From Meghimatium bilineatum (Eukaryota > Mollusca > Gastropoda > Stylommatophora > Philomycidae): a stretch of DNA of 64,000 nucleotides. Location of the stretch: positions 42,022,761-42,086,760 of the forward strand of contig CM067306.1 of assembly GCA_034231615.1 (NCBI GenBank), written 5' to 3'. The notes below the pieces were generated by a model. It did not search any database and was not told the origin of the DNA. It saw only the letters and a program-made list of their open reading frames with translations. This document shows, in pieces, positions 4,360-63,274 of this stretch (its first letter is position 1; every line of letters starts with the position of its first letter). The position numbers and the translations under genes are program-made.

Positions 4360-4965
4360 AGGATTTCCAGAACTTTTGTAAATCCCAGATGTTTGATTTT
4401 TGTTGCTTTAGGGTGCAGTGCCATTAGCGGGACAGTTTTCTACTCCAAATGGAACTTTGTTATGGCTTTCTTTCAATCTGGAGACATGCTAAAGATAAAA
4501 GGTTTAATTCCACACAAGTAGTCTAGGCACAGTCATTCAGTTAGCTTTATAACAGCGGAGATCATGAGATGGAACACTCAACACCACAGCCTACTTCTTA
4601 ATTTTCCTGTTATGATATGCATGTCAGGTGGCAGTATTACTAGTCTTTACTCCCCTGTTGAGTTCCAGTAACATAAGGGCAGCTTTGGGTAGATACTTAC
4701 CTTCTTCGTCTGCTGCTTTTGTTCTCAAACTCCTGCAGTTTCCAAAATGTAGTCTTAAGAATGAAATGTGTTGTGTCATGGTTTACAGCTTTGCTGTGAT
4801 ATCTACACCTTTTGGTCTGACATATCTGACTTCAGCATGACTTCTAGACAACTTTGATCTTGTATGTGATGTGATAGCCAACTGCACCCCATAACCTTCT
4901 CAGTTGCCTCTTACAACATGCATGGGAGGTAAGCAGTGTTACTTTTCTTTTCTCCTTTTTTCAAG
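4360..4965 (+). repeat. Dispersed repeat R1 (composite copy)
   Basis: From about 4705 the sequence matches other R1 copies at 9020, 33975, 34290 and 43620: a CTCAAACTCCTGCAG block, then TGGTTTACAGC, then a CTGACTTCAGCATG block, then CTCTTACAACATGCATGG. The part at 4360-4690 has a partner at 25530-25810, sharing TTTCCAGAACTTTTG and AGCGGAGATCAT-like blocks. The ORF at 4628-4840 is not a gene. Confidence 0.7.
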
Positions 4966-16200: not shown

Positions 16201-19200
16201 TACATATTTCATACCATGAAGGATAAGGTTAAATTTATGAAGAAGCAGAGACTAGACAAGATAAGATAACTATAATTAAATCATTCACCCAAATTAAAAT
16301 AGTTTTTGTTTTAAATACCAGCATTGTTGTAATTTATGTCTGAATCTATTCCCACAGCTGCTCCTCAGATCGAGTTGCCAGATCGTTATGGCCAAGGGCT
16401 TCGTTTCTGTCGTGGTGACACTATCAAAGTCCGCATTCCAATATCAGGAACACCCACTCCTAAAACTATCTGGAGCAGAGGTCGTGAAATTTTGGAGGTT
16501 GGAGGTCGCAACGGTCGTGTGGACATTGCAGGAACTAACCTTCACTCAACCTTGATCATTGAGGACTGCATCAAATCTGATGAGGGTGTCTACATCTTAG
16601 AGATTGAGAACCAGCTGGGCTCAGCCAGAGTGGAAATTCCCATTGCTGTAGTTGGTATGTATATCTCATTTAGTCACATTAACAGTTTATTTTAGCTCTG
16701 CTGTTATTTTTTCACTCATCTCATTTGTGTCTCATTTAATCATACTAACAGTTACATTTATTTTAACACTGCTGTTAGTTATTTTTTCACTTATCTCATT
16801 TGTGTGATACTGAGTCAGAAATTGGAGCAAAGAATGGCTGTCTGATTGAAGATCAAAGTGAGTCAGAAGCCATGCTGAAGTTAAAATCTATTAAGTTTAA
16901 ACTTTCAGATATTGCAGCTAATCTGTAAACCATGACCCTTCACATTTTATTCTCCTTACTATATTCTGCTAATCTGCAGCAGTTTAAGAATTAAAGCAGA
17001 AAAAGATGTTACTGATCTTAACAATATATTGTAACATTTATTTCATACTTCCTCCATTGTACTGTCATTGATGTTCTGCCCCCTTATGCATACCACTAAT
17101 TTAGTACCTCTTATTCTATCTAGTATATTTCTTTTATTCTCTAGTTCAGTTCCATTAAGAACTTTATCAGTTAATGAAATATGAAGACTACATCATGTTC
17201 AATTATAGCTGCTGTACAGAGAAAATGTTCTGCCCAAAGAATCATAACAACAAAGACAGATATCTAATCCTGACCATATGTGTCCCAAATGTGGCAGAGT
17301 TGGACTTTTCAGTCATCTGCACACACACCAGTGAGATACAAGAACATAAGCCTTAAACTGTTGTCATCATTGGCTGTGATGGATAGCTCATTATTATTAT
17401 TATTTATTATTGTTATTATAGTTGTTATGAGCTGTAACTACATTAATTATGAAAACTTATCGAGAAAACATAATTTTTAGCCAGCTTATTTCCATGAGAA
17501 CCAAAATTGTATTTATATTATTCTTTGCAGAACCACCAGACCCACCCAACAAACCTGAGATCAAGGAAGCAGATAAGCACAGTGTGGACCTCTTCTGGGA
17601 ACCACCAGAATATGATGGAGGATCACCTATCACTGGTTATGTTGTTGAGCGCTGTGATCCTATTACAAGAATTTGGCGCTGGGCTTTGACGACCTCACAA
17701 CCATTCTGCACAGTTGCCTGTTTGGAAGAACATGGCGAGCACCGATTCCGTGTTATGGCTGAGAATCGGTTCGGTGTTAGCGAACCTAGCAAAGAATCAG
17801 AAATTGTCATCACCAAAGAAATACTGCCAGCTATCAACTATGATGAATTATGTAAGTCTGACTTATGATAATTGTTGCTTCTGTCCTGTAGATATAGGGA
17901 AAGGTGTGTTTGGAGGTTCAATACCTTCCCTTATGAAAATAGAGCATGAAACTTAGAATTATAAAAGCAGTAAAAAAATTTAATATAGCTCTTTCCTCTC
18001 TTCCCCCCCCTCCCCAATTTTTCCTTTAAATTTCCCCTCTTACAAAAAAGGGCGGGGGGGGAGCTTTTTTTAAACATTATTTTTTTTTTCCCCTTCCAAA
18101 CAAAATTATATCTGTAACCTGCATTAGGAATAGTGCAAGCTGTAGGAGCTGCTGGATCAATAGAGTTATGCTCTATCTGTCCCCCTATCTGTGCTCTACA
18201 CCTAGACCAACTGCTAACCAAATCTTAGGACTCAGTCTGCCCAGACACATCATTGTGGTTTTATTTTGCTTTTTCTCATCCTAGAATAAGGTATGTGTCC
18301 TCCGACATGTTCACCTCTGCCCAAAGTCGTTTATTGGACCAAGTATGTCATGAATGTGTCCTCCGACATGTTCATCTCTGCCCAAAGTTTATTGATTGAT
18401 TGGACCAAGTATGTCATGAATGTGTCCTCCGACATGTTCATCTCTGCCCAAAGTCATTTATTGGACCAAGTATGTCATGAATGTGTCCTCCGACATGTTC
18501 ATCTCTGCCCAAAGTCATTTATTGGACCAAGTATGTCATGAATGTGTCCTCTGACATGTTCATCTCTGCCCAAAGTCGTTTATTGGACCAAGTATGTTGT
18601 GAAGTTATTGTGATTCCTTAACAGAAACTTGGTGATTCTTGATTCTTGATTAAAAAACTGGCCTCACAGCACGTGGGGCATTCCCATAAGTGCTCCGCCC
18701 TATGTTCCAGCAGCCATTCAACTCGATGGTGTTTCGAATCCAATGCCGCAGAAACAGACGTCGACATTAGGACACAACTCTGGCCCTTGTGACAGTTTTC
18801 TTTGTTGTTCTGCCCACGCCGTGCCCGTAACTAGTTCAAGCACAACGTCGGCATGTCGGAACAACATGGTAACTGTTATCAAAGGTTATGACTATGGGAT
18901 TGTATAGATGACATGCCATGAAGCTTCTATAAGAAGATAACCTCAATATAAAGGCATGTCATCTACTAAGGTTTTCTGTTGCATGGTTGGTTTGTCTAGT
19001 AAATGATGTGTAGATGTAATTCTGAATTGGTTTATGTAATTTGTTTTCAGATGATGAGAAATTCCTGGGATCTCATATTGATGTCAACTGCATCCAGGGT
19101 GATGTTTTAGGAAAATACATTATCTGTGAAGAACTTGGAAGGTAATCTTTTCTTTTCAAATAGTCAATTTATATTACTACTCATACTATTGGCTTGTCTG

Positions 19201-26172: not shown

Positions 26173-29100
26173 GGTCCATACCATGCGATGTTTGTTATCA
26201 TGTCTTTCCACAGCCTTCTGTTTCATATGTTGTCAATCATTTCTGATGCCAATGTTCTCCCGTGCCACAATGCTAGATTTTCAAGCATCTTCTCTCGTGG
26301 TCTTCCCCTACCTCTCTTGCTCTTCAACTTGCCTGTTGTTATAATGGGTACATTATTATTATGATTCACTTAATATAAATTTATGGTGCTATGAAACAAG
26401 GCCATAGACTTATTGAATGCTTAGTCCAGTCTTGGTTGCTTCTGACAGACCAAACCAAATGATCCCCAGAGCTATTAATGGGCAATGGTCCAGAGGTTTT
26501 CCGCCCCTGGTCTAATCAAATGGAGTGCTTGTATATCCATAAAGCTAAAGCTGTGAAGTAATAATGGTTATAATGCTGATTTATTTAAATGGTTAGATAG
26601 AACAATGAAGTAATAAATTATATAAGCACTTATTTTTCAATCAAAAGAAATCTAATTAAATTGTTATCTATTGATCCATCTCTGTTCAATCTCAATTTTT
26701 CATATTTTCTACTGTCCCAGTCCTAATTTCTGCCTTTAAAGTTCCTATTCATTTATTTATTATTTCAACCCATCTATCAACTATCCACTCTCTGTTCATG
26801 AGTCTGTTAGTTCATCTGTTCCTTATCAAGCAATTAGCTTACCACCAAAGTTGAATGTGTATGGCAATTGGTGAAAAGAAAATGGGAACGCAATGCATAT
26901 TTGTTCTCTGAAGTACATCCTGCTGGAAATTAGTATGATCATTGTCCTGCTACAAGAAGGATCCACTGGGAGTTTGAGAATTAATGCTTACAGTCCTTTA
27001 ATTTACAATCCATCACATTTGAGTTTGTCTGTCCTCTAAACATCATTGTATTTTATTTCATTTGTCCATCATCCATCCTTCACTTTTACATTCCCTCATA
27101 TTTTAATTCATCTGTCCTTCATCTTTCAGTTTTACAATCACCCACATGTGCAAAAGTTAGTGTATCAGGTCAAAAAGTGAAGATATTGCATCTAATCTGT
27201 AACAATGACACATCCAACTGTTCTTCTGATTACATGTTGCTAATCTGAAGGAGTATAACAACAAATACAGAAGGTAATCATCTGCTGAAGTTGGATGTGC
27301 AAGATCTTTGGCACAAATAAAACTGCAACACAGCACATCTTTGTTCTCTGCACTATATATATCTTGCTAGAAATCTAGTAGGATCATTGTCCTACTACAA
27401 AAGAGATTGTGGAAGTTTAAGAATGAACAAAAAAAGCATATGTACGAGGGGGAGTCAATAAGTAAGTCACAAATTGATGTTGGATGGCAGGAAAATGCAG
27501 TAGGTGGTTTCTAAAGCTGTTTATAGTTGATATCATCATAGAACTTTATGTTTATGTTCGCTAGATGGCGCTAGCTGTACCTTGCGCATGCGCAGCACAA
27601 AAAACAAAATGGCTACTGTACTTACAGAGTGTACAATCAATGAACAACGTGCTGTTGTGCGTTTTTTATGGGCAAAAGGACTGCCTGCAAAAGACATTCA
27701 TAAAGAAATGCTTCCTGTTTATGCTGACAATTGTTTGTCCCGTAAAGCGGTGCACAGCTGGGTAAACAAATTTTCTCAAGGACGCTCTAAAATTGTTGAC
27801 GAAATCCGATCTGGTCGTGCTGTTGAAATTGCAACAGACGCATCTGTGCAGCGGGTTGAGGAGATGATTCGAGGTGACAGACGAGTAACGATAGACGCTG
27901 TAGCAGCTGCAATAGGGTGCTCACATGGTTCAGCATACAGCATCATGCATGACCGATTGAAATTTAAGAAAGTGTGTTCAAGGTGGGTGCCCAGACAATT
28001 GACGGACGAACACAAAATGAACCGATTAGGCTTGTCATTGGAGCATCTCTGTCAATACGCAAATGAAGGAGAAGACATGATGAACAGGATTATTACTGGG
28101 GACGAATCATGGGTGCATCACTACCAGCCGGAATCAAAGCGTGCTTCAATGCAATGGAAACATCCTTCTTCGCCTTGTGTCCAAAAATTCAAGGTTACAC
28201 CATCAGCAGGGAAGGTTATGCTGACAGTGTTCTGGGATTGTCAAGGAGTGCTTTTAACCAATTTCAAAAAGAAAGGTGACAATGTGAATTCTGAATCATA
28301 CTGTGAAGTTCTATCAGTGCTTCGGGATGCAATTCGAAGAAAACGTCCAGGGCTGCTGACTAGAGGAGTGCTACTCCTTCATGACAATGCTAGACCACAT
28401 ACGGCTCGATTAACTCAGGAGAAAATAAAAAATCTTGGTTGGAAAATTCTGGAACATCCTCCTTACAGCCCCGATTTAGCCCCTAGTGATTTTCACCTTT
28501 TTGGTCCACTAAAAACCCACCTTGGCGGGAAGCATTTCGCGACTGACGCAGAAGTTGAATGTGAAGTGAAAATGTGGCTTAAAAAGCAGAGCACGCAGTT
28601 CTACGCAGCAGGTTTGGGAGGACTCATAAAACGATGGGATAAATGCATCAATGTTGGTGGAAATTATGTTGAGAAGTAAAGGGATAATGTATGTGTAAAA
28701 ATAAACAGTTTTCAGGTTTTTATCGTCTTCAGTTTTTTTTCTAAAGAGCCATTTGTGACTTACTTATTGACTCCCCCTCGTACATTGATATTTTACTGGT
28801 CTGTTTGTCCACTATATTAATTTGGCTATATTTATTCATTCAGACAAAGGATGACAATAGATGAAGCTTTGAACCATCCATGGCTGAATGTAAGTTTGAC
28901 TATATATTCTTTTAACTCATATCTGGCATTGCATTTCTACTTTCTCTCATTTTGCTTTCATTGTGATTAAAAATGAGAATGAACTGGCTTTTTCATGACA
29001 TCATAATAATAATAATAACAACAAATCACATATATCATTGGCATCTTATCATGGCTTATTAATTGGTGATATCATCTTAGATTAATCCAAATAATTGCCT

Positions 29101-32100
29101 GGCCAGATATATGTCCAATTAATGTCATCAAACCAGACATTCATCATTTTTGGTGTGACAGTAACTTTCTATCTTCCTCATGCTCATTATTTTAACACAA
29201 GTTATTGAGAATTAATACAAGCCATGATTTCTTCATTTATATCGTAACAATTTTGATTTTGATCAAATGTAACATAAGAACAGTTGTTCTTCATATGTTT
29301 AAAATATTTTTACCTTAAGAATAAATGAGACATTAAATGTCATATCATTTTATATGCTGTTTCTATGCTGTCAGTTTGTGAGAGTTTGTCTTATAGTTTG
29401 AAATAGTCATTTTTCCATTCTTTTGTTAAAATTATGTTTAATATTTTTACAAGTGATTTATAAACCTCAAACCTGCCAACTTCAGAAAGGATACTTCTGT
29501 CTTTCAGCCCAAATTAACCCCTAGATTTTGTAATTTGACTCCAAAATCTGTATAAACAATACTTTACTGAAAGGGAAATGCTGAAAGTCAAGTTGAACAT
29601 ATTAGTGAAATATAAATTTGGTCTCTGGTTAACTTCTGTATATATTATCAAAAATTTGTACAAGTTGGCAGGTATGAATCTTAAAAAAGAAATGTTTGAA
29701 AAGAAAATTGTAAATTTTCTATAAATGATCAACAAAATTAACTAATGAATTACTGTCAATTTTTAAAATATGATGCACCACTTCAAGTGGTTTTCCATAG
29801 TAGTATGTCAGCAGTAGCATGTAAAAACAAGATTTTAGTCTGCTTATACTAAGAATTAATGTCTTTTCATGATTACATCAACATCATGTTCTGTTACTTG
29901 TCTGTGAAGCTGTTTCTACTATTTTTCCTGCATTTTGGTCCTGAAATAAAAATATCTGTACAAGATCCAATTGACTCATCCACTTGCACTGATTTTTCTA
30001 CTCAACTTATGATTAATCTGACACATCATCAGATCTGTTCTATTCATATTATGTTTAGTCTGATGTAGCATAAACATTTACTGACAGATTTTTACAAAAT
30101 TAAAACAGCTATACTATATTGAACAATTTTCATATTCTTAAAACATCTAGGTTATATCTAGTATAGATATTCACACTCACAAAAAAGCTAGTCTATATTA
30201 AAAGCTGTTCACAATGTAAAACAGTTTGGTTATATTGAAAGATTTTTTAATATTCGTTTGAAAACTATCACTTGACAATGGTCCAACTATACTTCCAGTA
30301 GGATGTAATCTGGAGAGCAGATATGGATTGTGTTCCATATTATTTGTTGCAATGTCCTGGCACATCTGACTGGTGGTATTTATCAATATTCACACTATGA
30401 AAACAGCTTGATTATATTGAAAGATATTCACTCTATGAAAACACCTTACATATATTAAAAGATGTTAAATATGAAAACAGCTTGGTTATAATAAAAAAGA
30501 TATTCACAGTGTGAAAATAGTTTGGTTATAATTGTTATAATATAATAACATCTTGGTGTGAAAACTGCTGGGATATATTATAAGATATTTGCATATGAAA
30601 AACTTTTGGTAATATTGAAAGATATAAAAATGGCTAGAGTATATTGATAGAGTGACAAAAAATAATTTGGTTATGTTGATGATCATGGAAATACCCAATA
30701 GAATATGAAATCTATTACACATTTTAAGTATTCTACTCCATATAAATACTGAATAACTCATAATTCCATATTATCTATCACTTCTTGCATTGTGAGTACT
30801 TTTCTTGTGAAATGATTGTTAGTACTTTTCTTGTGATATGATTGTGTGATTCTATCAAACATTGTGCTACTCTATTTATGGCATCCTCTCCCGCCCCACA
30901 GCCACGCCCTCGTGCACTGTCTGCTGATGATGTAGTTGATGTAAGTACTTGCCATCTTTTGATGTCTTCAGATTTTATAACATTGTATTTGTCATTACCA
31001 TCGTTCCATACCTGTCAACTTGTACAGACATTCTGTAGACTATTTACACATTATACTTAGACTCTTCAGTGTATACCATTAGTGAAGTAATCATATGTCC
31101 ATGTTTGTCTTCAGTGTATACCATTAATGAAGTACCTGGTAATCATATGTCCATGTTTGTCTTCAGAGTATACCATTAGTGAAGTAATCATTATACACAA
31201 TTTTGCAGAATTTGGAGCCAAAGTACACAATTTAGTGGCTATATACAACAAAATACAGAATTTAGTGTTTATTTTTGTCTAAAAAAAAGAAATTAGGGCT
31301 TATTTTGAGTTAAACGTGGAATTTAATGTTTATTTTGTCTAAAATACAGAATCTGTGGTAGTTGACAGGTATGAACTAGCATTGTTAAAATAACTTCAAG
31401 TAAATCACTGTTGTGTGTTGTGCATGTCAGTGTGTCCACTATTCATTTGTTGAACTTATCAACCAAATAACAATCAAAGGGCAACCATAAAAGTGAAAGG
31501 CACAACATCAGAGTTGTTCAAGGTTTTATAAAGGTGTAAGACAAGTGTGTACATTGTCACCTTACTTATCTATAATATAATAGCCATGTTCTATCATCTT
31601 CAGAATGCTCTATAAATAGTGCATTTACGTCATGGAATTCCCATGTGACATCAAATCAAAACGATTGGTGTCGTGACGTTATTCAAAGTAGATGACATTT
31701 TTGTATACAAATATTATTGGTGCACTAAAATGTAAACTTCTGTATTGGCTTGTGGTTAAATTTATCTAAAAAGTGTCAAAAAATAGAAGAGCAAAAATCT
31801 AGATTGTTGAGTCATCAAAGTCAAGAGTCACTCACTCTGATTCATGCCGCTAATGCTGCAAAGCATAGATATAGAATTGAAAGAGAAATGCAAAGAATTG
31901 ATCAAGAAACCTTTCAACAAAGACAAACATGACTTGTTAAGGATGCTGACTTGCATTGGCATCAAGCTAAGCTAGAATTATCAACGCAAAGAGAAAATTG
32001 ACAAGCTATGAATAGAAAATACCAACTTCGTCACAGACAGCATGAAGCTGTTGAGAAAACGCAGAGACGTTGAGCTGCAGATGCCAAGGCTCACTAATTG

Positions 32101-35100
32101 TCACAATTACATCAAAGTCAAGCAATTTTAAATGAAGCAGAAAATTTTGCTGATATGTTACTGCATATAACTGTGGAATTTTCGATATTATATGTCAATT
32201 TTGTAGTGCTAAACATTTTTAGAGTTGCCGAAAGGGAAAGATCATGCTCCCAAAATCACAAGATATCCATGATAATAAGCTGGAGTATCCCGAGTTCCAG
32301 CGCTTTATGCTCTCATATACACCCTACATACACACATTTTCATGAGAATATTCGTTCTTATAACAGCGCTCTTTCTTTTGTGTCGATGGTAGCAAAAATT
32401 ATGTATTATCAAGGTCCATATGTTTTAAAAATTCATGGAAAAACGTATTATCAAACTTCTCATATACAACCGCCATACAACAAAGTTCCACAGTTCGCTC
32501 AGTTGTGTGTTTTGGACAGTACTCAAGTAACAGACGTTTGACAAGCACACGCAGCAAATGCTACATGCAAAAGAGAAATTCTTTATAAAATTTATCAATT
32601 TTTTCGTCAGCACAATAGACTAGCACAGTCGTATCAGTTAATGCATGATATCAAAACAAGAGAGATTCCAAATGCTGCTCAAACTGTAAGAAAAATCTTG
32701 ATAGTAAACATTGTCTTCAAATGCAATTGTCAATCTGATCAACGTCATTATAATGAACCAACATCTAACAAAGTTGCAATGGTTTTCATCAACAAGATGG
32801 AAAACCACCCTTTCACCATGACATTCACATTTATTCATTCATAAAATATTGGTTATGGACTGTATTATGTCATGCTCGCTTTTGTTACCATACGATGAGC
32901 TGGGTTTGCAAGCACATTGGCAATGTGAAGCATATCAGGGTAAGCAACCCAAAAATTTCGCCTTGATGGGACAATGTGATCTGAACGAATCTAGTTTCAC
33001 ATATATGCAGAAAATATAATGAGAAATGTGAAACAGAATTCAGACCCATAAACATCAGAAGACTATAGATTCCAGAAATCAGATAAGACATAACAGAGTT
33101 CTACTAACAACAAATGAGCAAGATCTAAAGAACATACTAAAATCAACAAAAAGATTCAGCGAACATCAAAGCTTCTTTCTTAATATGAAAAAGACAAAAA
33201 TAATGACAACAAAAAAAGTGAAATCAAGACCTAGAATTAATATCACTAACTGTGTTCAAGAAGAAATGACAAATTTAGAATATTTAGAAGCTAACATAAA
33301 CAGTTCAGGTGACTACGCAATCAGGATCAAGAGGAGGACAGCAATGGCTAAACTAAAACAACTGAGAAAAACTGTGGCAGGGTACAAACATAGTAACAAA
33401 GGTATGCTTGTTACATACATGTGTGTTTTCAGTGGTGATCTAGAGATGTGAGGCATGGACAATAAATAAAACTGTGGCTTCTAAACACCACATTGAGAAG
33501 GAAGTTTTTTGTTTTTTTGCCATGTAAAGAGACACAGTGTTATGGAAAGAGTACACCTGAAGGGAGTGATAGAAGAAACTAGAGACAAAGGACACCCAAG
33601 ACGTTGTTTGACCAGAGATATCCAAGAATGTATGCATATGTCGCTGGAGGAGGCAGGACAACTTTCCCAAAACCTTGGAGATTTCAAGAGATTCATAAGG
33701 AAGACAAAGTTCTGGAAAAAATGTATCGCATAACAACAACAACATGTAATACGAAGCTCTGATATGACTATGAGGGTTAATAATTGAAAACTGCAAGGAT
33801 TTATTGTTGACTTACTGACTGACTTAGAATCTAAATTACTACCTTGTGATTATGATAAATATTTCCACTCTGAGTGAACTGACTTAGAACCTGATTCTTG
33901 ATTCACTAGAATCTGACTGACTTAGAATCTGAATTACTACCTTGTGATTATGATAAACATTCTTACAGTCTTTCTATTGTTCTTCTTCTTCTGCATTTGT
34001 TCTCAAACTCCTGCAGATTAGTGAGATGTAATCAGACAAATGAAGTGCGCTGTGCCATGGTTTACAGCTTTAGCTACACTATCTACAGCTTTGGCCAGAC
34101 ACATCTGACTTCAACATAGCTTCATGGTCAATTTGCCCCATCTATGGAATGGGATTACCAATTTCACCCTAAAATATCCTTAGTCACCCCTTATTGCATT
34201 TGTGTTTGGTAGCAGTATTGCTATTCTTTGTTCCCAACTTAGGCCTGACAGTACACTAATGAAATCTTTCTATTGATACATAAATTGATTTCTTATTTTT
34301 ATTCTTCTATGTTCAATTGAAACTCTTGCTGATTAGTAAGTAGTCCAGAGAACAGAATGCATTGTGGGTCACAACTTTGCCATGATATCTGCACATTTTG
34401 GCTTGACACATTCAACTTCAGAATGATTTTGGTCAATCTGGCCTATTAGATGGGACAGACAGCTGCATCTCCAATCTGACCTATGAGATGGGACAGGCAG
34501 CTACACCCTCCTCTTACTATGGCTTGTCACATAATGTTATTCTTTGCTCCTTTTGCAGACCCTGACAACAAACATGAGATTAATATAATTTTTTTCAGAA
34601 ATCGAATAATGACAATCAAGCAAATGAATTTGTTATCAGTTTTGGAAATGTGTAGCTCTTCTATTTTTATTTGTGGCTGGATATGTGACTTCAAATCACT
34701 TGAGAGATTATTTGTGGCTGGATATGTGACTTCAAATCACTTGAGAGATTATTTGTGGGTCAATTGTTCCTGATTTTTTTCATCTGTTGCCCATACCAGC
34801 AAATAATATAAATAAGTGTTTGTGTAATCGAATTACTTCAGATCTTCTTTTTCACTGGCTCATAATATAGAGAGAAAACTTGTAGTGTATAAGGTTGCAG
34901 ATATTATTCATCATCAAACCCATAATCGTTCAGGGTTGTAGGGGTGTCACTCTGGAAACATCAACACAAATATTTGGCTATGTCTCTCTGTTATCAGTTC
35001 TTTGTTTGAGTGTGGAGAATCTTAATCCTGTCTAGTCCTTAATATTATCAATCCATACTTTCCCCCTGACCTCCTCTTCTTCTTCCATACTCAAATGTTC

Positions 35101-38100: not shown

Positions 38101-41100
38101 AAACAGTCTTGGGTGTAATGAAAAAAATCAAGTATCTAAAACTTCCAGTTATTATATTTTAGAAAAAATAAAAATATCATCAACCCTGATAGCCTCTGCA
38201 TTCTCTAATTTTTAGAAATGTTTATAATTATGGTATTTGCCATTTTGTAATAGTCCCTGATCTCTGTTTTATTGTTTCTAGGAAGACGAGCTGGATGTTC
38301 TTCCCATTGGACGTTTATCTAGAGACAGTGCTGTCATGAGAAAAGAGGGTGATCAGGGCATTGTCATGAGGAAGCTAGTCATGGGTAAGTTCTATAAGAT
38401 TTCTGGACAAATTTCTACAATGGAAATGTTTGAAATATTCTGCTTAAGGAATAAGTTAAGAGTGATGGTTCTCAACATTATCTGAGATTAGTCATTTGAA
38501 TTGAGTATTCTAAACACTATTCCCTTTAGTTCAGTGCTCTGACAATTATGGGGAATAATGAACAATATGGGTTTTGCAGATAACATTATATGCCTAACTG
38601 CAGAATTGTACAAAAATCAAGATGCTGCCATAAAAGTGGAAGAGGTAACATCAGATTAGATTAAAGTACAGAAAGAAATAATACAATGGTGTACATTGTC
38701 ACCATATCTGTTTAACATATATGCAGAGAACATAATGAGAAATGTGAAACACAAAACAATGCAGCAAGAATTCAATGCCTACAGATTCCAGAAATTAGAT
38801 ATGCAGATGACACAGGACTATTAACATCAAATCAGAACATAATAAAAACAACAAAAAGCTTTAGTGAACAACAAAACCTCTTTCTAAATATGAAAAAGTC
38901 AAAAATAAGGACAACTGACAATGTGAAAAAAAAAGATCTACCGGGTAGTATTAATATTGGTAACAATGTTTTAAAAGAAGTGACAATTTCAAATATCTAG
39001 GAGCTAACATAAGCAGTGCTGAAGACTATGCAGTCGAGATCAGGAGTAGAACAACAATAGCAATGTCCAAATGAAAACAAGTGAAAAAACTTTGGTATGG
39101 AGCAAATACAGGAGTGTCTAAGGTTTGTTTGTTGCATACATGCATTTCCAGTGGTGACCTACAGTTACAGCCAAAAGAATAGAGGCCTTCAAAATGAAGT
39201 GCTATAGAAGAGCCCTGACAATACGATGTACAGTAAGAAAGACCAACCAAGACATGCTAAGAAAAATCAAAGTTCAAGGTTTTTAAACATCATATTAACT
39301 TTATGTCTTAGTAACTTGCTTAAAGGATTTCCTGCTATGGCAGAGCACATTTTTTAATATTTTTAGTAATTTATGATAGAATTTGTATTTTTACAATTTC
39401 TCCTTCACTATTCTGTCCACATGAACAATTCTGACATCAAATTACTAAGAAGTAGATAGACAATAAGAGTCAGTATAGATTGTTTGATTACAAATAATAT
39501 TGTGTTAGTTATGGAAAATTTGATTCAGACAATAAACAAGAAAATGTGGAGAAAAAAACAATAGAAATTAGTACATATCCAATCTTGTATCCCAGAAAAC
39601 TGAATGAATCATAAATGTCACCTTATCTTGAAATCAGCAAATGCATACAAAATATGCATTTTCCATAAATTTTTCTATTATTTAGGCCTACATTTTAGTG
39701 CGGGACTTATTTACATAACCTTATATATATATATAAACTTGTTATATTGAAAGTCAAACAGATTAACTCATAATTTTTATATGCACTTTCTTATACACTA
39801 TTTTAGAAATGCCAGAACATGCTCCATCTTTCTTGGAAGAGCTGACCAATGTCACAGGCTTTGAAGGATCAAGGACACAACTGGCATGCAAAGTTGTTGG
39901 CAAACCTACTCCTAAGGTCACATGGTAAGTTATTCATCATCATCAAACCCATAACTCTTCAGGGTCTAAGGGGTGCCAATCTGGCAATATCAACAGAAAC
40001 ATTCTGCCATGCCTCTGTGTTCTCAGTATCTTGTTTAAGTGTGGAGAATCTTATTCCTGTCCAGTCTTTAATATTATCAATCCATACTTTCTTTTGAGCT
40101 CTTCTTCTTCCCCCCTCAACTGTTTCCTGTAGGATAGTTTTAGAATGGGAATCATGCCTCACCACATCACCTAGCAACACAATCTTGTCAATTATTACTA
40201 TTGAATCTATCAGGTAATCTGTCCTGTTTAATTTATTTTATCTGTACACATTTGTTTGTTTGTTTGATTGTTTAGATGCACATAAATTATGAGAGTGATT
40301 AGGTCTTGCTTCCTATTTTTATTAATTTTTATTACTGTGACTCTCACCTTTTTTGTCAGATAAACTTGTTGATTATTAGATACATCATATGTGTCAGTCT
40401 AAGGAGATTATACACATCATATGTGTCAATTTAAAGAGATGATACATATCATATGTAACAGTCTAAGGAGATGATAAATGTCATATTTGCCAGTCTAAGG
40501 AGATGATAAATGTCATATTTGCCAGTCTAAGGAGATGATAAATGTCATATTTGCCAGTCTAAGGAGATGATAAATGTCATATGTGTCAGTTTAAGGAGAT
40601 GATAAATGTCATATGTGTCAGTTTAAGGAGATGGATACTTATCATCATCGTGTGACATATTCTTTCCAGAACGTAGTCTTCTTTATGGACCTTTTGAACA
40701 CCTCGCCATCCTGGGTGAGTTGACCTTCCTCCTCCAGGGACATGTTTAAACAGTCAGATATATTGATTGTCCATCGCTGTCTTGAGTGGCCTCTTCCACT
40801 GCTGCCATTTACCCTGCCTTCTGATATTAGTCTTTCCATGCTGTCATGTCTCTTTAGATGACCAAAAACATTTCCCTTTCTTGTTATGATGTTATTTAGG
40901 AGCCAGCCCTCTTTGACAATTAGTGATTGTAATACTTCTTTGGTTGTCTTTTTTGCTGTCCATAGTATATGCAAATTCTTTCTGCAGCATCTCAATTCAA
41001 AGGTAGCACTTTTCTTTGCCACTGTTTTATTTAGAATCCAAGCCTCACAGCTGTATGTAGCCACAAGGAACATGCATGTTCTTATCATACGCAGTTTTAC

Positions 41101-62167: not shown

Positions 62168-62820
62168 GCACGGTTTGCAACTGGTTTAACTGACTGGCAG
62201 TGTCTTGTAGGAAAATGTATTGCATCTGGTTTAACTGACTGGCAGTGTCTTGCAGGAAAATGTATTGCATCTGGTTTAACTGACTGGCAGTGTCTTGTAG
62301 GAAAATGTATTGCAACTGATTTAACTGACTGGCAGTGTCTTGCAGGAAAATGTATTGCATCTGGTTTAACTGACTGGCAGTGTCTTGCAGGAAAATGTAT
62401 TGCAACTGATTTAACTGACTGGCAGTGTCTTGCAGGAAAATGTATTGCATCTGGTTTAACTGACTGGCAGTGTCTTGCAGGAAAATGTATTGCATCTGGT
62501 TTAACTGACTGGCAGTGTCTTGTAGGAAAATGTATTGCATCTGGTTTAACTGACTGGCAGTGTCTTGTAGGAAAATGTATTGCATCTGGTTTAACTGGCT
62601 GGCAGTGTCTTGCAGGAAAATGTATTGCATCTGGTTTAACTGACTGGCAGTGTCTTGTAGGAAAATGTATTGCATCTGGTTTAACTGACTGGCAGTGTCT
62701 TGTAGGAAAATGTATTGCATCTGGTTTAACTGACTGGCAGTGTCTTGTAGGAAAATGTATTGCATCTGGTTTCACTGACTGGCAGTGTCTTGCAGGAAAA
62801 TTTGTTGCAGCTGGTTTAAC
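62168..62820. repeat. 45-bp tandem array, 14 copies, open in three frames
   Basis: The unit is GGTTTAACTGACTGGCAGTG plus TCTTG(T/C)AGGAAAATGTATTG and CATCT. Only a few positions vary (TGTAG/TGCAG; CATCTGG/CAACTGA). Because 45 is a multiple of 3, a + frame of 302 codons (unit D-W-Q-C-L-V/A-G-K-C-I-A-S-G-L-T) and two minus frames stay open. Near-identity means recent expansion. I treat it as an intronic minisatellite; see findings for the splice-site twist. Confidence 0.95.
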
Positions 62821-63274
62821 TTACTGCAATGAAGCACCAAATTTTATGAAAAGCACTCAGTTCTGCAGAGGAGTTGTTTTTTTCTTATTTAACGTTCCTT
62901 CTCACACTCTCGTTAGATATCTCTTGCACCAATGATCAGACACATCCACCTTTAGTGGTTGTACATATTACATTTAATATTTTATCAATTCAACTGAATG
63001 TTGAATATCCATAACCATATTGCAAATAAGCCAGTCTGTACATCACAATGTATTTTTCAGCATTTCTTACACTGCACACTGGCATCTTTCACCAATCTGA
63101 CTGTTATTCACAGTCAATATTGCTTAACCTTTTGCTGATGTCTGGGTCACTTATTGACCTGATCACAGACACCAACCTAATAAATTAGTGGAATCTTTTC
63201 TTATCTAAACAGTGAATGACTGATCTGAACAGATAATAGTCAAATAAATGTGCTGATATGGACAAACAAGCACA

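Follow-up and report, generated by a model that had tools for sequence, protein, structure and literature searches.

The window analyzed here is the whole 64,000-nucleotide stretch of the Meghimatium bilineatum genome (contig CM067306.1, positions 42,022,761 to 42,086,760), in which a LINE reverse-transcriptase fragment is interrupted by an insert with the ends of a Helitron, while an uninterrupted copy of the same LINE lies downstream. The features of the locus are as follows:

31469-31568 (+): 5' part of the LINE reverse-transcriptase fragment, ending ...CTLSPYL; aligned with 38612-38706, with empty sites at two further genomic loci, L052 and L053
31569-32994 (+): non-autonomous copy of the Helitron, 1426 bp in length, with 90.6% identity to the 33-copy consensus
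31569-31583 (+): Helitron 5' terminus TCTATAATATAATAG, preceded by the target A; the same or a similar start was seen wherever a 5' end could be recognised (25 of 33 loci)
31770-31772 (+): point at which about 66 bp of the 9-copy consensus (about 206-271, start codon included) are missing; BLAST breakpoints at element positions 202/203
31772-32992 (+): decayed N-terminal Helitron transposase region, with frameshifts and stops
32956-32994 (+): Helitron 3' terminus, palindrome eroded, CTAG followed by the target T
32995-33740 (+): 3' part of the LINE, in which the reverse transcriptase resumes FHIYAENIMRNV; from the paralogue alignment, and from a genome search of 32995-33451 only
38612-39164 (+): paralogous copy of the LINE, uninterrupted, the empty site falling between 38710 and 38711; from alignment

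Several other features were seen in the window. A repeat of about 200 bp, possibly a SINE or MITE, lies behind the LINE (33980-34190), with diverged copies near 4702, 9029, 16907, 27154, 45187, and 49760. A 382-aa open frame without internal stops at 27531-28679 (+) encodes a mariner-type transposase (Pfam Transposase_1, E 2.6e-18), open frames at 16333-16695 and 17431-17868 (+) resemble by eye the Ig and Fn3 domains of a large muscle-type gene, and a 45-bp tandem repeat (14.5 copies, 96% matches) at 62175-62826 is open in several frames.

Deletion of 31569-32994 (1426 bp) in silico yielded a gap-free reverse-transcriptase stretch in which ...GVRQVCTLSPYL is followed directly by FHIYAENIMRNVKQ..., and an ungapped junction was also obtained on aligning the joined flanks with the paralogue at 38612-39164 (72%, 572 columns), in agreement with the initial annotation, which had proposed that removing the insert rejoins the LINE. 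The same annotation had started the LINE at 31430, but the alignment with the window paralogue begins near 31469 instead; at the other side, the simple tail of the LINE was placed by eye near 33727. Since both breaks are followed by a T, alignment alone leaves the insert boundary uncertain by one base; it is settled by the ends of the family, which are TC...CTAG. The empty site, previously inferred from the paralogous LINE, was found in two more copies elsewhere in the genome, where the uninterrupted site reads TTGTCACCGTACATATTTAACATATATG (L052) and TTGTCACTTTACTTATTTAACATATATG (L053); the surroundings of the L053 junction carry the same TTACTTATTT as the window LINE, with likeness on its 5' side limited to about 20 bases. 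The LINE is common in this genome, with copies of its 3' flank (32995-33451) at 74-82% identity among the 40 of 2011 candidates that were scored, window excluded. Its assignment as a reverse transcriptase rests on a motif in the translation and a weak Pfam match (RVT_1, E 0.025, below the curated cut-off). The LINE copy is older than the Helitron inside it.

When the element was searched against the genome that contains the window (1.61 Gb, 32 contigs), 2258 first-look candidates were returned, of which the best-matching 40 were scored (76 matches), so that the figures given here may not describe the whole family; 39 of the scored copies lie elsewhere than the window. Consensus and ends were derived from 33 loci (the window and L009-L040), and codon positions and 3' forms from all 40 copies. 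The insert starts TCTATAATATAATAG and ends CTAG, between A and T, as had been read before, and the same rule is followed by the family loci: in the first 12 copies read, wherever the ends are kept, homology to the element sets in at TCTATAATATAATAG and breaks off at CTAG or close to it. The search for further copies with the same ends that had been suggested for this element was successful, both ends being shared by other copies. We counted a 5' end as recognisable at a score of at least 38 (8 of the 33 loci dropped) and a 3' end at a score of at least 20 (L009, L025, L031, and L036 dropped, although L009 also reads CTAG then T). The 25 loci retained on the 5' side have the TC terminus, some with point changes in the first bases, and the base before it is A in 23 and G in two (L011 and L033). 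On the 3' side, T follows all 29 recognisable ends, whose terminal four bases are CTAG in 22, CTGG in one, and other one-base variants in six, the end of L028 having been moved by hand to its CTAG. Under a looser rule applied to all 40 copies, 35 3' ends were assigned and followed by T in 34 and A in one (four of the remaining five had no anchor and one was decayed), but some of these ends are shifted by a few bases and the 33-locus count is therefore the better one. Helentron and Helitron2 elements insert between T and T and have different ends. Here the target is A/T, not T/T, and the termini 5'-TC and 3'-CTRR, with insertion between A and T without target duplication, are those of Helitrons. 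Two peptide patterns searched in viral contigs matched 108 stretches, among which no relative was confirmed.

The position of the 1.4 kb inside the LINE is the only point in favor of regarding it as an integral part of the LINE family, either an extra domain or an intron, and we consider this close to negligible. The initial annotation had asked whether other LINEs carry the same 1.4 kb, and all three copies examined (38612-39164, L052, and L053) lack it, whereas the 39 other scored 1.4-kb copies are dispersed. When the 300-bp flanks of all 33 loci were compared, a local repeat was common to L013, L023, and L029 only; the two flanks of L035 resemble each other, and nothing further in this comparison passed E 1e-5.

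The 33-copy consensus is 1562 bp long, with a mean identity of 89.4% between it and its copies, and has one open frame of 440 codons running from the ATG at position 242 to the last base, without a stop of its own, such that it would continue into the flank. Its translation matched residues 11-387 of Helraiser (E 1.6e-69) and no Pfam model; the element is therefore without the Rep nuclease and helicase. As it encodes no RepHel transposase (HUH Rep plus PIF1-type helicase), it is non-autonomous. Two open pieces of the window insert match Helraiser (PDB 7lcc) at residues 178-246 (E 7.1e-9) and 254-342 (E 2.4e-5), and a third (32822-32992) gave no match. What had been described as the Helitron N-terminal domain is thus the N-terminal region of Helraiser and not Pfam 'Helitron_like_N', a model that covers a later part of the protein and that was matched by neither the window pieces nor the consensus translation.

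Differences from the consensus outside CpG sites are spread evenly over the frame: 1029/13416, 969/13983, and 992/14340 at codon positions 1, 2, and 3 across the 40 copies (7.7, 6.9, and 6.9%), next to 501/7040 (7.1%) in the leader. The family copies have decayed without constraint after insertion, a result that has no bearing on selection in the founder. We regard as improbable that the family is nevertheless a coding one in which selection preserved the N-terminal protein, which might for example bind DNA and regulate the full transposase. The 440-codon frame retained by the consensus speaks for it, as do the reports that Helraiser fragments without the N-terminal domain failed to cleave DNA and that this domain was suggested to bind DNA, as far as the account in PMC4778049 goes. 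However, a recent deletion derivative would keep such a frame without selection, the copies have no codon-position bias, and the frame is without its own stop. An earlier consensus of 9 copies even had two in-frame TGA codons, both at CpG sites and both CGA in the 33-copy set; the window TGA at 32539-32541 is likewise CGA in the 33-copy consensus.

The 33-copy consensus ends ATTTCGTCCCGACGGGATCCGAACGAATCTAG and contains the palindrome TCCCG-A-CGGGA 11 nt before CTAG, close to the position of the 19-bp palindrome described 11 nt from the end of Helraiser (PMC4778049). The palindrome is present in the consensus and in many copies, but not in the window copy. Its length varies among copies, with short forms, intermediate forms, and long forms with a second palindrome; among the 35 assigned ends these number 20, 6, and 9, respectively, some assignments being doubtful. 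The window 3' end is nearest to the intermediate form, and differs from a reference end that we wrote for that form at 8 of 39 bases, 5 of the 8 being CpG transitions. Neither the window 3' end (z 0.06) nor the short consensus 3' end (z -0.14) folded better than shuffled sequences. Because the family has the palindrome and the window differences are mostly CpG transitions, the absence of a hairpin from the window copy is best read as decay by mutation and not as an unusual design. The earlier suggestion of an internally deleted or unusual non-autonomous form therefore holds as to internal deletion and non-autonomy, whereas the missing hairpin is attributed to mutation.

The coding match running almost to the end of the insert, together with the lack of a hairpin in this copy, might instead suggest an isolated 3' truncation, in which the Helitron ended at a CTAG occurring by chance within its coding region and so acquired a new 3' end without a hairpin; de novo ends of this kind have been reported for bat Helitrons (PMC4778049). 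This explanation is very improbable, and an early idea that coding sequence running up to CTAG marks a chance truncation was dropped: of the 32 other loci, 28 have a recognisable 3' end of the same kind, many with the palindrome, and 5 of the 8 differences between the window end and the intermediate reference are CpG transitions. The motif GTAAGC near the element end had also been considered as a splice donor, and was dropped as the consensus continues to the shared 3' terminus.

Relatives of the full-length type were sought with the domain PF14214, for which the genome has 46 matches (all 81 candidates scored), 39 of them with stops inside. Four of these regions were read (L048 to L051), with a family match in L048, L050, and L051 and a weak one in L049. 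The 5' end is kept from consensus base 1 in L051 and from base 21 in L048, which shares consensus positions 21-721 and 779-1536 at 84-88%. Past the shared part, L048 contains the Rep domain, with matches to PF14214 (E 1.2e-36) and to Helraiser 459-596 (E 8.4e-38), and pieces of PIF1 (E 5e-12 and 6.5e-17). Numerous stops interrupt L048. L051 resembles it across this later part and includes a PF14214 match of its own. The family is therefore, in the main, the product of an internal deletion that starts shortly before the Rep domain and extends to the 3' end. In the stretch IYSFIKYWLWTVFDELVMDCMMSY of the consensus, which precedes the main deletion, L048 reads otherwise, so the family is not a pure single deletion of L048 and further change took place. 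The search for an autonomous parent that had been proposed led to broken full-length-type relatives (L048 and L051); none of the four regions read contained an intact full-length element.

In both relatives the helicase region is followed (L048:1377-2202, minus strand; L051:5865-6319) by consensus positions 3-152 (8-152 in L051) joined to 1268-1562 and ending in CTAG, a small derivative of the family that measures about 470 bp; the same succession is present at seven more places. The fused piece begins about 80 bp after the helicase stop in L048, and homology between L048 and L051 stops 11 nt past the derivative CTAG. No CTRRT was seen between the helicase stop and the derivative in L048, the one match in the scanned stretch preceding the stop. 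Using a junction query of 815 positions composed of the helicase end, spacer, and derivative, we found the helicase side joined to the derivative at nine places, including L048 and L051, among the 40 of 2394 candidates that were scored; the match reaches the derivative CTAG in four of the nine and ends earlier, at query positions 608-791, in five. The other 31 of the 40 scored places hold a mini family (consensus 1-152 plus 1268-1562) without the helicase side, 17 of them matching to query position 809 or beyond. A census with the helicase end plus spacer, for which all 27 candidates were scored, gave 13 places matching to within 9 bases of the spacer end; at least 9 of these 13, which keep the end of the helicase gene, are joined directly to the derivative, and the other four lie at C2:87509001-, C19:61906774+, C19:11389593+, and C7:26352818+.

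These arrangements are most simply explained if the derivative of about 470 bp was inserted downstream of the gene in a full-length element, to which it now supplies the 3' end, although this possible use of the derivative terminator by the full-length lineage rests on incomplete data. New 3' ends in connection with neighboring Helitrons have already been reported in bats (PMC4778049). The full-length-type relatives described here resemble those cases in being followed directly by the sequence of another Helitron and, in L048 and L051, in ending at its CTAG. Unlike in the bat cases as PMC4778049 presents them, the donor here comes from within the family, as one of its derivatives, and nine places share the junction. 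We regard as speculative, and on balance doubtful, the wider proposal that the autonomous lineage, having lost its original 3' end, persisted by using the terminator of its own deletion derivative inserted behind its helicase gene, parasite and host element sharing one end, and that transposition may in addition have been tuned by an N-terminal DNA-binding fragment produced from the 1.56-kb derivative.

Taken together, we conclude with a probability of roughly 0.96 that the insert is a fossil, a non-autonomous Helitron that had inserted into an older LINE; both ends, the target rule, the empty sites, the many copies, the relation to a full-length type, and decay without codon bias are demonstrated. 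The founder of the family was an internal-deletion derivative of a full RepHel Helitron that kept the 5' terminus, the leader, and most of the N-terminal coding region, joined to the last few tens of bases with the palindrome and CTAG. It would have been mobilized in trans by a full-length relative, with a nick at the 5' TC end followed by rolling-circle displacement, a stop at the palindrome and CTAG, and insertion between A and T without duplication of the target; movement in trans and the rolling-circle steps are inferred by analogy with Helraiser, as far as it is described in PMC4778049. The copies then decayed neutrally with heavy CpG loss.

The family shares with Helraiser/Helibat1 of bats (PDB 7lcc; as set out in PMC4778049) the 5'-TC, the CTAG-3', the A/T target, and a palindrome near the 3' end, as well as the homologous N-terminal region. 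Unlike Helraiser/Helibat1 it is non-autonomous, without Rep nuclease and helicase, and its palindrome is shorter in the commonest form and doubled in others. HelibatN (PMC4778049) and Hel-2 (PMC4344730) are, by what those sources state, likewise non-autonomous, with both Helitron ends and many copies. The family described here keeps a long N-terminal coding stretch, unlike HelibatN or Hel-2 as characterized there, and its consensus measures 1.56 kb compared to the 250 bp given for Hel-2 in PMC4344730. The locus is a well-supported example of a known phenomenon: because the empty site of this nested insertion is demonstrated, the ends of a many-copy Helitron family in this genome are fixed, and the nesting gives the relative age of the LINE copy and the Helitron. 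The derivative fused behind the helicase gene is of some interest for how rolling-circle transposons gain new ends.
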